Source of the DNA: Candidatus Edwardsbacteria bacterium
GTDB lineage: Bacteria; Edwardsbacteria; AC1; EtOH8
Assembly: GCA_018821925.1 (NCBI GenBank)
Contig: JAHJLF010000041.1
Coordinates: forward strand, 1 to 58,201
Reading direction: 5' to 3'
Length of the DNA stretch: 58,201 bases
This document shows, piece after piece, positions 4,036 to 9,989 of the stretch; within the stretch, counting starts at the first letter, position 1, and each line of letters begins with the position of its first letter. The notes under the pieces are model-generated. The model was not told where the DNA came from, made no database searches, and saw only the letters and a list, made by a program, of their open reading frames with translations. The position numbers and the translations under genes were made by a program.

Positions 4036-4064
4036 TTGACAGAAACATCAAGTTCTGATATAAT
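4036..4064 (+). promoter_or_regulatory. consensus sigma-70 promoter of the tungstate transporter unit
   Basis: A perfect TTGACA at 4036-4041, 17-base spacer and perfect TATAAT at 4059-4064. Transcription would begin near 4071, some ten bases before the riboswitch-like element. A promoter this strong in front of a conditional terminator is the usual arrangement for riboswitch control. Confidence 0.85.
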
Positions 4065-4081
4065 CCATTGAATTATTCTCC

Positions 4082-4205
4082 GATCCCGTTTTTCTAAAAC
4101 TTCAAATGTCATGAAAACCGGGACGGTCTTCGCCGCAAGGCGGACAAGGGTAAGGCTGGAAACGGCCCTGCCTCCCGTATTTGGAAAGGAGAGGTGAAAG
4201 GGATC
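4082..4205 (+). promoter_or_regulatory. Moco/Tuco-type riboswitch candidate upstream of tupABC
   Basis: The element is closed by GATCCC at 4082-4087 pairing with GGGATC at 4200-4205. Inside are a GGACGG segment, a short CCGC-AAGG-CGG hairpin at about 4133-4143, a second GC arm (GGCTGGAAACGGCC), and a 3' block GCCTCCC...GGAAAGGAGAGG..GAAAGGG. That last block resembles the conserved 3' part of the molybdenum-cofactor RNA motif as I remember it. Known Moco/Tuco RNAs control Mo/W cofactor biosynthesis and molybdate or tungstate transporters, which is what lies downstream (tupABC, moeA, mobB). The terminators that follow suggest transcriptional control. I could not fold it or score it against the family model. 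Confidence 0.7.
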
Positions 4206-4211
4206 ATTATG

Positions 4212-4236
4212 CCCCATCAACCTTGATGGGGTTTTT
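4212..4236 (+). terminator. terminator 1 of the riboswitch expression platform
   Basis: CCCCATCAA at 4212-4220 pairs with TTGATGGGG at 4223-4231 and is followed by TTTTT. It lies 6 bases after the closing stem of the putative aptamer, where the expression platform would be. Confidence 0.85.
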
Positions 4237-4238
4237 GT

Positions 4239-4270
4239 ATCCGTCCTGTTCCAGCGGGACGGATTTTGTT
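4239..4270 (+). terminator. terminator 2, in tandem
   Basis: ATCCGTCC at 4239-4246 pairs with GGACGGAT at 4257-4264, followed by TTT-G-TTTTT. It begins three bases after the T-run of terminator 1, so two intrinsic terminators stand back to back before tupA. Confidence 0.75.
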
Positions 4271-4311
4271 TTTCCATCAACCATATACCATAAACACATC
4301 AAGGAGGAAAA

Positions 4312-5139
4312 ATGAAGAGGTTTGCAACACTGGCTCTGTCACTGCTTCTGGTCCTGTCTCTGCTGGCGCCGCTGGCCCAGGCCAAGGACAAGCCCAAGCT
4401 TATCCTGGCCACCACTACCAGCACCATGGATTCGGGGCTGCTGGATTTCCTGGTTCCCATCTTCGAAAAGGAGAACGGCTGCAAGGTTCAGGTGATCTCG
4501 GTGGGGACCGGAGCCGCCATCCGCTATGGCAAGGACGGCAATGCCGATGTAGTGCTGGTGCACGATCCGGTGGCCGAGGCCCAGGTGGTCAAACAGGGAT
4601 TTTTCGTGGAACGGAAATACCTGATGTACAACGATTTTGTCATCGTCGGCCCGGCCTATGATCCGGCCGGCATCAAGGGTTTGACCTCGGTAGCCGAGGC
4701 CCTGAAAAAGATTCAGTCAACCCAGGCGACCTTTGTTTCTCGGGCCGATCAATCCGGCACCCACAAAAAGGAACAACGGCTGTGGGCCGCCGCCGGGCTT
4801 GATCCCAAAGGTTCATGGTACCTGGAAGCCGGCGCCGGGATGGAGGCGGTGCTGCGCATCGCCAACGAGAAGCGGGCCTATTGCCTGACCGACCGCGGGA
4901 CCTATCTGGCCCACCAGAAAGAATATGAGTTGACAATAGTGATCGAGGGCGATAAGGAAATGTTCAATCCTTATCACGTTATGCTGGTGTCCCCGGCCAA
5001 ATATCCTTTTGTCAACAATTCGCTGGCCAGGAAATTCTCTGACTTTTTGACCACGGAGCGCGGACAGAAGATGATCGCCGAATACGGGGTTGACAAATAC
5101 GGCCAACCCCTGTTCTACCCGGCGGCGGAGAAGAAGTAG
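4312..5139 (+). CDS. tupA: tungstate ABC transporter substrate-binding protein
   Basis: An exported binding protein of 275 residues. A signal peptide (MKRFATLALSLLL..., cleavage after AQA near residue 24) leads into TTTSTMDSGLLD, the anion-binding TTS motif of TupA-type tungstate binders. It is followed by VGTGAAI and DVVLVHDP near residues 65-85, and by SRADQSGTH near 145, all typical of TupA rather than ModA. The family binds tungstate with very high affinity in the periplasm and delivers it to TupBC. An AAGGAGG ribosome site precedes the ATG. It is the first gene after the riboswitch-like element, and a 69-base AT-rich gap separates it from tupB. The tungstate preference is from family resemblance. 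Confidence 0.9.
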   Translation: MKRFATLALSLLLVLSLLAPLAQAKDKPKLILATTTSTMDSGLLDFLVPIFEKENGCKVQVISVGTGAAIRYGKDGNADVVLVHDPVAEAQVVKQGFFVERKYLMYNDFVIVGPAYDPAGIKGLTSVAEALKKIQSTQATFVSRADQSGTHKKEQRLWAAAGLDPKGSWYLEAGAGMEAVLRIANEKRAYCLTDRGTYLAHQKEYELTIVIEGDKEMFNPYHVMLVSPAKYPFVNNSLARKFSDFLTTERGQKMIAEYGVDKYGQPLFYPAAEKK

Positions 5140-5208: not shown

Positions 5209-5904
5209 ATGTTCAACTTGATCCAAAGCATGAAACAGGCCATGGGGATGCTATCGCAGTTCGACGCCGAGATCTGGCAGATCGTTCTGATGTCCCTGAG
5301 GGTCTCGCTGGCTTCTTCGGTGATCGCCATTTGCCTGGCAATCCCGCTGTCATTTGCCATTACACAGAATGAATTCCGGGGCAAGAGGGTGGTCATCGGG
5401 GCGGTCAATAGTTTCATCGCCGTTCCGGCGGTGGTGATCGGGCTGGTGTGTTACCTGCTGCTGTCGCGCTCCGGACCGCTGGGGTTCTGGCACCTGCTGT
5501 ACAGCCCATCGGCCATGATCACTGCCCAGAGCTTGCTGGCCCTGCCGTTGATGACCGGGCTCTGTATCGCAGCCCTGCAGGGCCTGGGACATCGGGTGAG
5601 GGAGACCATGGTCACCCTGGGGGCCGGCCGCCGGCATCTGACACTGGGCATAATGCGGGAGGTCCGGTTTGCTTTGGCGGCGGCCTTCATCACCGGGTTC
5701 TCCCGGGTGCTGGGCGAGACCGGCATGACCATGATGGTGGGCGGCAATATCAAAGGCGAGACCAGGGTAATGACCACCGCCATCGCTTTGGAGACCATCA
5801 AGGGCAATTTTGAACTGGGGATCGCCCTGGGGATTGTTTTATTGGTTGTTGCAATCGGCATCAACGTCGTCCTGCAATTAGTGCAGGGGAGGGCCGGGCG
5901 ATGA
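5209..5904 (+). CDS. tupB: tungstate ABC transporter permease
   Basis: A 231-residue inner-membrane permease with about five or six membrane segments. The EAA-type loop near residues 130-150 (ETMVTLGAGRRHLTLGIM) is where it touches the ATPase. GETGMTMMVGGNI near residue 170 is characteristic of TupB. It forms the membrane channel of the TupABC tungstate importer. The gene overlaps tupC by ATGA at 5901-5904. The gap before it carries a TATAAT-like box near 5162 but no matching -35 site, so read-through from tupA is the likelier source of transcription. Confidence 0.88.
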   Translation: MFNLIQSMKQAMGMLSQFDAEIWQIVLMSLRVSLASSVIAICLAIPLSFAITQNEFRGKRVVIGAVNSFIAVPAVVIGLVCYLLLSRSGPLGFWHLLYSPSAMITAQSLLALPLMTGLCIAALQGLGHRVRETMVTLGAGRRHLTLGIMREVRFALAAAFITGFSRVLGETGMTMMVGGNIKGETRVMTTAIALETIKGNFELGIALGIVLLVVAIGINVVLQLVQGRAGR

Positions 5905-6971
5905 GGATAGCGGTTCAGAATATCTCCAAGAGCTTCGACGGGAAAGCGGTGTTAAAAGACATCTCCCTGACCATAGAAAAACCCGGCATCTATGCCTTGG
6001 TGGGGCCCAACGGCTCCGGCAAGACCACCCTGATGCGGATGCTGGCCCTGCTGGAGAGGACCGATTCCGGTACACTGAAATACAAGGTGCGGGACACTGA
6101 GGGATATGCGTCCCTGAATACCACTCCCAGGATCAGGAAAAGGATGGCGCTGATACATAATCCGGCTGTGATGTTCTCCGGCAGCGTGAAGTACAACGCC
6201 GGCTACGGCCTCCGGGTAAGGGGCGTTTCCCGGGATATGCGAATGAAAAAAGTTTTACAATCCCTGGAAAGCCTTTCGCTGGGCGGGTTTGAAAAACGGG
6301 AGGCCAGAACCCTGTCGGCCGGGGAGATCCAGCGGGTGGCCCTGGCCCGGGCCCTGGTGATTGACCCGGAGCTGATATTCCTGGACGAACCCACCGCCAA
6401 CCTGGATCCATTGAGCGCCAAGCTGATAGAGCAGACCATACTGGAACTGGCCCGCCGGGGAAAGAAGGTGGTTTTGGCCACCCACAATCTCTGGCAGGTG
6501 GAGCGGATAGCCGACTGGGTGTGGTTTCTGAACGACGGGATAATATCCATCTCCGGCACGGCCCAGGATGTCCTGCACAAGGGCGACCAGGCTTTTTGGG
6601 GAAAATTTCTGGGCCGGGATAATATGTTTGCCGGGGAAATTGTTGATTTGAAAAATGGAAAATCCTTCAAGGTAGGCAACGTATCTTTTGAAGTTGCCAG
6701 CGACATAACTGGTCCGGCTATGGCCAGTCTGAATCCCAACGAAATAATTTTATCCGCCCAGAAGCTGACCAGCAGCGCCCGCAATGTGATGGAGGGCGTG
6801 ATCACCGAGGCGGTTTCCGAGGGCGGGCTTTACAAGATCACGGTGGATGTGGGCCTGCCGCTGATCGTGGCCATCACCAAGGCCTCGTGGGACGAGATGG
6901 GGTTGCAGGAGGGCAGCAAGGTGTATGCGGTGTTCAAGGCCAGCAGTGTCAGGGTATGGCGGGAAGAATAA
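5901..6971 (+). CDS. tupC: tungstate ABC transporter ATP-binding protein with TOBE-like C-terminus
   Basis: An ABC ATPase of 356 residues. Walker A is GPNGSGKTT near residue 35, the signature is LSAGEIQR near 137, Walker B is LIFLDEP near 158 and the switch histidine is in ATHNL near 192. The last 120 residues (from about 235) form two beta-rich repeats consistent with a TOBE/MOP-like regulatory module, which in molybdate and tungstate ATPases can bind the oxyanion and limit uptake. TupC proteins are often shorter, so this tail makes it closer to ModC/WtpC in layout. Translation is coupled to tupB by a four-base overlap. Confidence 0.87.
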   Translation: MRIAVQNISKSFDGKAVLKDISLTIEKPGIYALVGPNGSGKTTLMRMLALLERTDSGTLKYKVRDTEGYASLNTTPRIRKRMALIHNPAVMFSGSVKYNAGYGLRVRGVSRDMRMKKVLQSLESLSLGGFEKREARTLSAGEIQRVALARALVIDPELIFLDEPTANLDPLSAKLIEQTILELARRGKKVVLATHNLWQVERIADWVWFLNDGIISISGTAQDVLHKGDQAFWGKFLGRDNMFAGEIVDLKNGKSFKVGNVSFEVASDITGPAMASLNPNEIILSAQKLTSSARNVMEGVITEAVSEGGLYKITVDVGLPLIVAITKASWDEMGLQEGSKVYAVFKASSVRVWREE

Positions 6972-6998
6972 TCTATATAATGAATGAAGGAGAAAACA

Positions 6999-8060
6999 AT
7001 GAGTAAAATTGGATTTACTGAAGGGCCCTGCCCTGTATGTAATTATAAAGAATCAAAGTTTAAAGAAGCTCTAATATCAGAAAAAATATATGGACAATAT
7101 TTAGAAATCGATTGTCCTCGCTGTGGAAATTATGCCTTTATATTAGATGATTTTGACGATATTCATGAGTTGTTGCTTAGTATCATTAATGAGGATGAAT
7201 TATATTGGTTCCTCGGTTATACTAGAGAACAAACAGAAATTAGAGATTATAATATTGTAAATAAACTACGCTCAGAAGCAGGGACAACTGAATCTTTGTC
7301 TTATAAATACAATAAATTGCGCAACGAACCTTTCATAAGAATTGAAAAGGATAAGATAAAAGAACAAATAATATTTGCAATCAAACAAGCACCTAAAACG
7401 CCCCATGATAAAGCAATTAAATTATTAACCAATTTAGCGAACAGCAATAGATTCCCAGGGAATTTAATACCCCTTGATTCAGAGAAAGATTATACGGCTT
7501 CATACAGCGGAAGTGCTGAAGAATTTCGTTACTATCTTGAATATTTAGAGAAAAATGATTATATAAATATTCGTGGGACTAATTGTATAATTACAGTCAA
7601 TGGTTGGAAGGTTGTGAATGAAGTACAGACCATGAAAAATTTACCCCAATGTTTCGTAGCCATGTGGTTTGATCAAAGTATGGATAATATTTATCTTAAT
7701 ATTGAAAAAGCGATAAATGACGCGGGTTATAAACCCGTTAGAGTAGACAAAGAACACTATACTGGTGATATAAATGATAAAATTATTTCCGAGATTCGTA
7801 AAAGCAAATTTATTATTGCGGATTATACAGGGCAAAGGCATGGTGTATATTATGAAGCCGGATTTGCAAGGGGCTTGGGAATAGAGGTTATTTCTACCTG
7901 TAGGAAAGACGAGATCGATGATTTGCATTTTGATACTTCACATTTAAATCATATAACTTGGGAAACGAATGTTGAAATATATCAAAAGTTAAAAGATAGA
8001 ATATTGGCTGTATTTGGTCAAGGGCCAATAAAAAATAACGAAAATCAAGATAGCAAATAG
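6999..8060 (+). CDS. zinc-ribbon protein with nucleoside 2-deoxyribosyltransferase/TIR-like C-terminal domain
   Basis: A 353-residue protein of unknown role. It opens with a zinc ribbon (C11-x2-C14 and C39-x2-C42) and continues with a helical middle. It ends, from about residue 218, with a Rossmann-like domain: CFVAMWFD, then ISEIRKSKFIIADYTGQ, then GVYYEAGFARG with E286. That pattern (Ser/Thr-rich turn, then Y-E-x-G-x-A) is typical of the deoxyribosyltransferase/TIR-like superfamily, which cleaves N-glycosidic bonds in nucleosides or NAD-like molecules and is recurrent in antiviral effectors. A strong site, AAGGAGA, six bases before the ATG at 6999 decides the start over 6984. The gene is clearly AT-rich while both neighbours are GC-rich, suggesting transfer into the tup-moeA operon. 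Function is inferred only. Confidence 0.6.
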   Translation: MSKIGFTEGPCPVCNYKESKFKEALISEKIYGQYLEIDCPRCGNYAFILDDFDDIHELLLSIINEDELYWFLGYTREQTEIRDYNIVNKLRSEAGTTESLSYKYNKLRNEPFIRIEKDKIKEQIIFAIKQAPKTPHDKAIKLLTNLANSNRFPGNLIPLDSEKDYTASYSGSAEEFRYYLEYLEKNDYINIRGTNCIITVNGWKVVNEVQTMKNLPQCFVAMWFDQSMDNIYLNIEKAINDAGYKPVRVDKEHYTGDINDKIISEIRKSKFIIADYTGQRHGVYYEAGFARGLGIEVISTCRKDEIDDLHFDTSHLNHITWETNVEIYQKLKDRILAVFGQGPIKNNENQDSK

Positions 8061-8061
8061 C

Positions 8062-9273
8062 ATGATATCATTTCACGAAGCCAGAAATAAAATACTGGAG
8101 GGCATAAAACCTTTGCCCCCAGAAAAGTGCCGTCTGGAGGACTTTTTGGGCAGAATACTGGTCCAGGATGTCGCGGCCTCGTTTGACATCCCCCAAAAGG
8201 ACAACTCGGCCATGGACGGTTTTGCTATCATTGCGGCTGATGTGGCAAATGCCTCACAGGATGATCCTGTGACACTGCAAGTCATCGAGGACGTGCCGGC
8301 CGGTAAGGTTGCGACCAAATCACTAAAACCGGGGCAGGCCATTCGCATTATGACCGGGGCGCAGATACCAGAGGGAGCGGATGCGGTGGTGCCAGTAGAA
8401 TTGACCAGCAAGGGAATACAGAATATTGAAGTTAGAATATTGAAGGCGGTCAGGCAGGGGGCAAATATTCGCAGACAAGGCGAGGATGTAAAGTCCGGGC
8501 AAATGCTGATTACCAAAGGAACCAGGCTGCGGCCGCAGGAAGTGGGCTTGATCGCTTCTCTGGGCCTTATGGAAGTTTTGGTGACCAAGCAGCCGGTGGT
8601 GGGAATAATCTCCAGCGGCAATGAGATCGCCGCACCGGGACAGACGTTAAAGCCCGGTCAGATATACGATGCCAACCGCTTCAGCATAGCAGGGCAGGTT
8701 AAAGAGGCCGGGGCAGTGGCCAAGGATTACGGCATTGTGCCGGACGATCTGTCGGCCATAAAAGGAATTTTGAATAAGGCAGCGCAGGATTGCGATGTGA
8801 TCATAACCTCGGGCGGGGTTTCGGTGGGCGACTATGATCTGATGAAGCAGGTTCTGTCCGAACTGGGGCAGATGAATTTCTGGCAGGTGAAACAGAAGCC
8901 GGGAAAGCCACTGGCCTTTGGGCATATCAACGGCAAGCCGGTGGTGGGATTACCGGGCAACCCGGTATCCTCGATGGTGGTCTGTGACCAGTATGTGCGG
9001 CCGCTGATGTTGAAGATGCAGGGCTGCGCTGCCATTTTCAAAACTGCCATTACCGCAGTATGCGATCAGGCCATAAAAAAACCGGCCGGGAAAACCCAAT
9101 TCCTGCGTGCCAAGGTAAAATGGCAAGACGGCGCGTATCACACAGTTCTCACCGGGCCGCAGGGTTCGGGAATACTGACCTCCATGGTTCAGGCCGACGG
9201 GCTGATGATCCTGCCGGAAGAATGCGACGGGGTAAAACAGGGGGATATGGTGTCTGTCGAATTGTTTGGGTAA
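8062..9273 (+). CDS. moeA: molybdopterin molybdenumtransferase
   Basis: MoeA inserts molybdate (or tungstate) into adenylylated molybdopterin to give the active cofactor. The 403 residues carry the full set: PQKDNSAMDG near residue 47, RIMTGAQIPEGAD near 95, the MoCF fold with SSGNE near 187 and TSGGVSVGDYD near 253, LPGNPVSSMV near 298, and a C-terminal beta-barrel from about 325. The start at 8062 follows the previous stop by one base, so it is likely read in the same transcript as tupABC. Placement beside a tungstate importer suggests the cell makes a tungsten cofactor, as many anaerobes do. Confidence 0.93.
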   Translation: MISFHEARNKILEGIKPLPPEKCRLEDFLGRILVQDVAASFDIPQKDNSAMDGFAIIAADVANASQDDPVTLQVIEDVPAGKVATKSLKPGQAIRIMTGAQIPEGADAVVPVELTSKGIQNIEVRILKAVRQGANIRRQGEDVKSGQMLITKGTRLRPQEVGLIASLGLMEVLVTKQPVVGIISSGNEIAAPGQTLKPGQIYDANRFSIAGQVKEAGAVAKDYGIVPDDLSAIKGILNKAAQDCDVIITSGGVSVGDYDLMKQVLSELGQMNFWQVKQKPGKPLAFGHINGKPVVGLPGNPVSSMVVCDQYVRPLMLKMQGCAAIFKTAITAVCDQAIKKPAGKTQFLRAKVKWQDGAYHTVLTGPQGSGILTSMVQADGLMILPEECDGVKQGDMVSVELFG

Positions 9274-9344: not shown

Positions 9345-9989
9345 ATGCAGCCAATCATCTCTTTCGTCGGACACTCCAACTCCGGCAAGACCACCCTGAT
9401 CGAGCAGATAGTCCGCGACCTGGCCCGCAAGGGCTACCGGGTTGGGGTGCTCAAGCACACCCACGGCGCCATCAAGGCCGATAAAAAAGGGACCGACACC
9501 GACCGGTTCCGGCTGGCCGGGGCCGGGATATCCTCCATTTGCGATGACAAACTGCTGGTAAGGTTTGAGAAGGCCGCAGGCCATAAGCCCAAGGATATCG
9601 TCCACGCGTTGAGCCGGGAACTGGACCTGCTGATCATCGAAGGCTACAAGAAGGAACATTTCCCCAAGGTATTGTTCTCCGATCAATTGGCGGATGCAGA
9701 TCCAAAGGGCATCATCGCTACAGTGGGCAAGAAAAAGCCTGCCTCCAGCAAGGTCCGGCATTTTCAACCATCAAAAATATCCGATATCGCCAAGTGGCTG
9801 GAGCGGGATATCATCATCCCCGGCCGGAAAAGCCGCCAGGTGGTCATCGAGGTGGACGGCAAAAGGCTTCCACTCAATGATTTTGTGGCCGATATTATCA
9901 AGGAAACCATCCGCGGGGCGCTGGGTACGCTCAAGGGCGGCAAAGGCCGTAAGATAGATATCTCTATTGACTTCGGGCGGAAAATATAG
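9345..9989 (+). CDS. mobB: molybdopterin-guanine dinucleotide biosynthesis protein MobB
   Basis: A P-loop protein of 214 residues with Walker A GHSNSGKTTL near residue 7, typical of MobB. KHTHGAIKADKKGTDTDR near residue 40 and LDLLIIEGYKKE near 90 are also family hallmarks. MobB binds GTP and assists MobA in attaching GMP to the cofactor, giving the bis-MGD form used by formate dehydrogenases and related enzymes. No mobA is in the window. The last 55 residues are an extension with a VVIEVDGKRLPLNDFV segment; this tail is seen in anaerobe MobB proteins and may be a small separate domain. It belongs to the Mo/W module. Confidence 0.88.
   Translation: MQPIISFVGHSNSGKTTLIEQIVRDLARKGYRVGVLKHTHGAIKADKKGTDTDRFRLAGAGISSICDDKLLVRFEKAAGHKPKDIVHALSRELDLLIIEGYKKEHFPKVLFSDQLADADPKGIIATVGKKKPASSKVRHFQPSKISDIAKWLERDIIIPGRKSRQVVIEVDGKRLPLNDFVADIIKETIRGALGTLKGGKGRKIDISIDFGRKI

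Follow-up and report, generated by a model that had tools for sequence, protein, structure and literature searches.

A P3-bearing Moco-family RNA precedes tungstate-uptake genes in Edwardsbacteria and is predicted to act by transcription attenuation

Results

A Moco RNA with a P3 stem heads the tup operon

The tungstate-uptake operon of Edwardsbacteria is headed by a Moco RNA that carries P3, the stem by which the molybdenum subtype of this riboswitch family has been told from the tungsten subtype, and this apparent exception to the P3 rule in a whole phylum is the main interest of the element. We analysed a stretch of 58,201 nucleotides, hereafter the window; it forms contig C41 of a genome of the phylum that measures 2.44 Mb and is 99% complete. 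An Rfam scan of the whole window gave a single match, a full-length Moco RNA (RF01055), which is also the only copy in that genome. The locus is ordered promoter, Moco RNA, two terminator-like hairpins, tupA, tupB, tupC, an unknown gene, moeA and mobB (Table 1). The element is genuine and a good representative of an established class of riboswitches, from which binding of Moco or Tuco by the leader RNA is predicted.

Table 1. Features of the Moco RNA leader and of the genes behind it, in window coordinates
Feature	Position	Strand	Basis or remark
sigma-70 promoter TTGACA-17-TATAAT, 12/12, TG ahead of -10	4036..4064	+	sequence
Moco RNA aptamer RF01055, full-length match	4066..4207	+	87.1 bits against a gathering score of 36; model positions 1-135 of 135
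P1, UUCUCC/GGAGAG	4076..4081, pairs with 4188-4193	+	Rfam alignment; columns nearly invariant in 8 homologous RNAs
P2 hairpin, holds the GATCCC 5′ strand	4084..4123	+	Rfam alignment; two-sided changes among relatives
P3 hairpin, published Moco-subtype mark	4129..4144	+	separate hairpin in 8/8 homologues
P4 hairpin with GAAA loop	4148..4173	+	Rfam alignment; two-sided changes among relatives
block GGAAAGGAGAGG (3′ strands of P5 and P1), predicted to act as antiterminator strand	4183..4194	+	invariant in 8 homologues
terminator 1 (T1), 9 pairs, UUUUU tail	4211..4232	+	private to the window's genome; uncoupled (p 0.96)
T2 5′ arm and loop, predicted antiterminator partner able to pair with the block	4238..4252	+	complementarity, shuffle tests, partition functions
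terminator 2 (T2), 11 pairs, U-rich tail	4239..4264	+	position conserved in 8/8 leaders
AGGAGG ribosome-binding site of tupA	4302..4307	+	sequence
tupA, tungstate-binding protein	4312..5139	+	best family; score under the NCBIfam equivalog cut-off
tupB, permease	5209..5904	+	family match
tupC, ATPase with TOBE domain	5901..6971	+	family match
moeA, molybdopterin metal insertion	8062..9273	+	family match; order conserved in relatives
mobB	9345..9989	+	family match; order conserved in relatives

Alignment of eight homologous RNAs showed that P1, P2, P4, P5 and the conserved core were present, with 95-100% of the cells in those helices paired and two-sided changes at 10 pairs, including pairs in P2 and P4. 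The whole-leader fold beat 200 of 200 shuffles (z = -3.67). When the homologues were folded individually, all eight formed P3 as a separate hairpin of 6-7 pairs, whose stems varied among them (CCGCU/AGCGG, CCGCC/GGCGG and CAGCC/GGCUG); because the MAFFT columns were misaligned at P3, this call rests on the individual folds, without pair counts.

A preceding sequence-only reading had correctly spotted the element: it had described a perfect consensus promoter, a Moco/Tuco-like riboswitch with a 3′ block, and control of tungstate uptake by tup and perhaps of moeA and mobB. The family and its place before the genes of a tungstate ABC transporter were confirmed, the promoter proved to be a 12/12 match in all eight homologous leaders, the block was found where it had been placed, and the gene order was conserved. 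That reading would have been given up for lack of a Moco-model score and of conserved structure; it survived with 87.1 bits and the 10 two-sided pairs. Its label was right about the family and needs refining as to subtype, since P3, the Moco-subtype mark, is present and yet the genes are of the tungsten type. The proposed closing helix GATCCC/GGGATC was rejected. Both strings are real (4082-4087 and 4200-4205, spanning 124 bases), and the closed element of 124 bases was a misreading of them, because GATCCC belongs to the 5′ side of P2, where it pairs with the CGGGA strand, and GGGATC is missing from that position in relatives and hence not conserved. It is P1 that closes the aptamer.

The RF01055 element occurred as one copy each in eight of the 10 Edwardsbacteria genomes, with scores of 77.6-87.5 bits. 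In one of the other two (G009) the contig begins at tupA, so that there is no leader to judge. In the other (G006) tupA is present and no RF01055 element was found in its leader even by a permissive Rfam search; a degraded element in this genome was rejected, given the missing Rfam match and a different leader sequence. The element is followed by tupA in five genomes and by pruA and then tupA in three, and the general order is RNA-(pruA)-tupA-(tupA2-porin)-tupB-tupC-moeA-mobB-FecR-like gene, some genomes having missing genes or contig ends. Between tupA and moeA in the window, no terminator-like site was found outside coding sequence, and the genes are presumed to be co-transcribed.

Several accessory genes were observed in these operons. 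In the window, a gene with a weak nucleoside deoxyribosyltransferase match (6984-8060; 358 aa) separates tupC from moeA; relatives have an IS200-type transposase gene at this place or no gene at all, and the gap therefore resembles an insertion spot. The pruA gene (L-glutamate gamma-semialdehyde dehydrogenase) was found at E <= 1e-100 in four of the 10 genomes and in all four lay within the riboswitch-tup operon, ahead of tupA in three (L039:1624-3252, L040 and L036) and, in G004 (G004:C34:30478-32094), behind the second tupA gene; our guess is that this NAD-dependent dehydrogenase replaces a tungsten enzyme under cofactor shortage. In several relatives, tupA and tupB are separated by the gene of a Porin_O_P-family porin (L039:5198-6403, L040:5492-6706, L041:4860-5960), which is possibly an outer-membrane route for tungstate; the window has neither this porin nor a second tupA.

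P3 and the choice between molybdenum and tungsten

Regulski et al. (2008) reported that P3-bearing Moco RNAs are found exclusively with MPT/Moco genes and that P3-lacking RNAs are mostly found in tungsten users (PMC2408646), and since 2008 the discrimination between Mo and W in this riboswitch family has rested on that P3 correlation. The window RNA has the stem of the Moco subtype and not the P3-less form of the Tuco subtype. Like the E. coli moaA RNA of the P3-bearing subtype (PMC2408646), it contains P1-P5 with P3 and the GCCUCCC...GGAAAGGAG core, and it stands before Mo/W cofactor genes. Unlike that RNA, however, it precedes tungstate-uptake genes, tupABC with moeA also present, in genomes where neither ModA nor WtpA was found (10 of 10), so that its company is not restricted to MPT/Moco genes. 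Its targets are those of the P3-lacking (Tuco) RNAs before tup operons, which also have tupABC and often moeA next, but it differs from them in having P3.

Tungsten metabolism of the kind expected with Tuco RNAs was found in these organisms, as tup and the N-terminal domain of a tungsten-type aldehyde oxidoreductase (AOR) were present in all 10 genomes. The AOR of the window's genome matches solved tungsten AORs, and the closest solved relative of TupA is a tungstate-binding protein. MoaA was likewise present in 10 of 10. We give an even chance to the reading that P3 does not code metal specificity, in which case the P3-bearing RNA of Edwardsbacteria would sense the tungsten cofactor, or either cofactor, and would control tungstate uptake. 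A serious competitor, to which we assign somewhat less than an even chance, is that the ligand is the molybdenum cofactor, which is what P3 predicts, with tup as the sole oxyanion importer bringing in molybdate as well, and that the P3 rule stands. This would suit the presence of P3, the finding of no other recognised Mo/W importer than tup, a formate-dehydrogenase-like protein that could take either metal, the Mo hydroxylases present in three of the genomes (G004, G005 and G009), and the discrimination of the E. coli P3-bearing RNA against Tuco (PMC2408646). In contrast, the TupA family members studied prefer tungstate and tup is cited as tungstate-specific (PMC2408646), and the tungstate-binding relative of TupA, the AOR in every genome and the failure to find any Mo hydroxylase in the window's genus also speak for tungsten.

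To place the tungsten reading among other lineages, we used 100 RF01055 loci from outside the phylum, with the P3 state determined by folding (10 with P3 and 90 without). The 10 P3-bearing loci precede moaA (3), modA (4) or wtp genes (3), and because of the last three, P3-bearing RNAs are not purely molybdenum RNAs in other lineages. A tupA gene lay within the fetched flank at none of the 10 P3-bearing and at 23 of the 90 P3-lacking loci, a difference that does not reach significance by itself (Fisher p 0.11); AOR was found at eight of the P3-lacking loci. From these counts, set against a P3-bearing RNA before tup here, the P3 rule appears as a loose one elsewhere and Edwardsbacteria as an exception to it. 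The three loci with wtp (tungstate/molybdate) transporter genes downstream of a P3-bearing RNA (L121, L141 and L109) belong to one family, f31, and represent a possible second exception. If P3 indeed does not code the metal, the published sequence rule that separates Moco from Tuco riboswitches would fail across a whole phylum. The question can be put to the test, because the phylum provides P3-bearing RNAs that occur naturally in a tungsten context and can be compared with P3-lacking RNAs that precede the same genes.

The second of two tandem terminators is the one predicted to be coupled to the aptamer

Two back-to-back terminator-like hairpins ahead of tupA, also described in the sequence-only reading, were recovered in our analysis. 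In 3000 dinucleotide shuffles of 4195-4311, one hairpin of at least 9 pairs arose in 20 and two arose in none; the paired strong hairpins are therefore not a product of chance. Of the 11 strong terminator-like sites in the window, no other two lie close together. T1 was absent from all seven relatives and no other leader had a T1 of such quality, the leader L004 (G003) having one weak T1-like candidate at linker positions 16-41, without a good U-tract. Another Moco leader, L104 (G326), also carries two back-to-back strong terminators, and dual terminators thus recur in the Moco family.

In all eight leaders, the best downstream partner of the block GGAAAGGAGAGG was the 5′ arm of the last terminator. 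Although these arms vary in sequence (ATCCGTCCTGTTCC, CCCATCCTGTTCC, CCTATCCTTCC, CCGATCCTTTG, CTGCCCTTTTCTCC), they remain complementary to the block. A first shuffle test, in which five last terminators were detected, gave p values of 0.002-0.038 each (0.022 for T2 of the window) and a combined value of 6e-6, which is a guide only because the genomes are related and the eight leaders are not independent. When the test was repeated with longer loops allowed, all eight leaders were included and p was 0.002-0.055 (0.054 for T2 of the window). The window's own p of 0.02-0.05 should be read with the caveat that a block rich in purines easily finds a partner in any arm rich in pyrimidines. For the arm of T1, p was 0.96 in both runs, that is, no complementarity to the block.

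Partition functions of the growing transcript showed that P1 and the pairing of the block with downstream sequence are mutually exclusive. At 192 nt, P1 stood at 0.01 and the downstream pairing at 0.61 when no P1 bonus was applied, against 0.99 and 0.05 with a bonus of -6 kcal/mol, an arbitrary value that mimics the ligand in what is an equilibrium calculation. Four relatives behaved alike, and T1 formed in both modelled states. Because the completed T2 wins in the model without ligand too, kinetic control is assumed. A terminator arm that is complementary to an aptamer strand and exclusive with P1 is the arrangement of a transcription-terminating OFF riboswitch, and T2 has it by prediction. 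The earlier proposal that T2 is an unlinked, basal terminator is thereby turned around: since conservation (T2 in eight of eight leaders, T1 private), complementarity and partition functions all favour T2, we take T2 as switched and T1 as unlinked. T1 as the controlled terminator was rejected, being neither conserved nor complementary and forming in either modelled state.

A model for control by transcription attenuation

We consider it likely that the P3-bearing Moco-family riboswitch is an OFF switch that works by transcription attenuation, and it probably turns off the tungstate-uptake genes when the cofactor is plentiful. The strong promoter would start the leader, and a bound pterin cofactor, in these organisms most probably the one that carries tungsten or else one with either metal, would keep P1 closed and the block within the aptamer, whereupon T2 would form and transcription would end. 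When cofactor is lacking, the block would capture the emerging 5′ arm of T2; because T2 would then be blocked and tupABC, moeA and mobB transcribed, both uptake and metal insertion should go up under cofactor shortage. In E. coli, the genes behind the Moco RNA are repressed by it (PMC2408646), and RNA-seq evidence of termination exists for the E. coli Moco riboswitch (PMC12121620). Masking of the ribosome site has been described for the E. coli RNA, whereas termination of transcription is predicted for the window RNA. This provides a concrete attenuation model, with conserved complementarity between block and terminator, for a riboswitch family whose action has mainly been described at the level of translation, in E. 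coli.

T1 sits in the loop of the predicted antiterminator, outside aptamer control, and would most likely cut output regardless of ligand, its termination efficiency being, like that of T2, a prediction. A strong unregulated T1 upstream of T2 would waste much of the range of the switch, which is a point against the model. It is conceivable, though we doubt it, that T1 is a pause or spacer hairpin and no practical terminator, a local form of the relatives' variable hairpin that helps the block to meet the T2 arm. Inverted repeats without a proper U-tract do lie between aptamer and terminator in several relatives, and both the place of T1 inside the antiterminator loop and its short U-tract (UUUUUGU) agree with such a role, but it has the stem and tail of an ordinary intrinsic terminator. 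We regard it as improbable that T1 works or co-works, with the aptamer controlling both hairpins, or that the tandem pair tightens the OFF state as doubled terminators can. The stem of 9 pairs (-15.0 kcal/mol) with five U speaks for such a role, and a dual terminator acts behind the c-di-GMP riboswitch Bc1 (PMC11218506), in which two intrinsic terminators, separated by a few tens of bases, likewise lie behind one aptamer; the missing complementarity to the block, the formation of T1 in either state and its absence from the relatives argue against it. Bc1 is moreover of a different aptamer class, and its T1 unfolds with ligand, the response being masked by a T2 that remains folded; in the window leader, by contrast, T2 is the predicted switched terminator.

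Compact Moco RNA variants in other genomes

Five compact RF01055 variants were observed elsewhere (L172, L174, L175, L176 and L177, in G022, G117, G380, G309 and G156), with 39-47 bits, just over the cut-off. They lack P3 and the CUAA...AUG internal loop of P2, and carry GCCUGCC...GCAAAGG. In four of the five, the 5′ arm of the terminator is the 3′ strand of P1 itself, and an ON switch is therefore predicted for those four; no case of such an arrangement was found in Regulski et al. (2008). All five variants precede enzyme genes, namely AOR (L172 and L176) and a formate dehydrogenase whose reading frame a UGA codon apparently splits (L174, L175 and L177).
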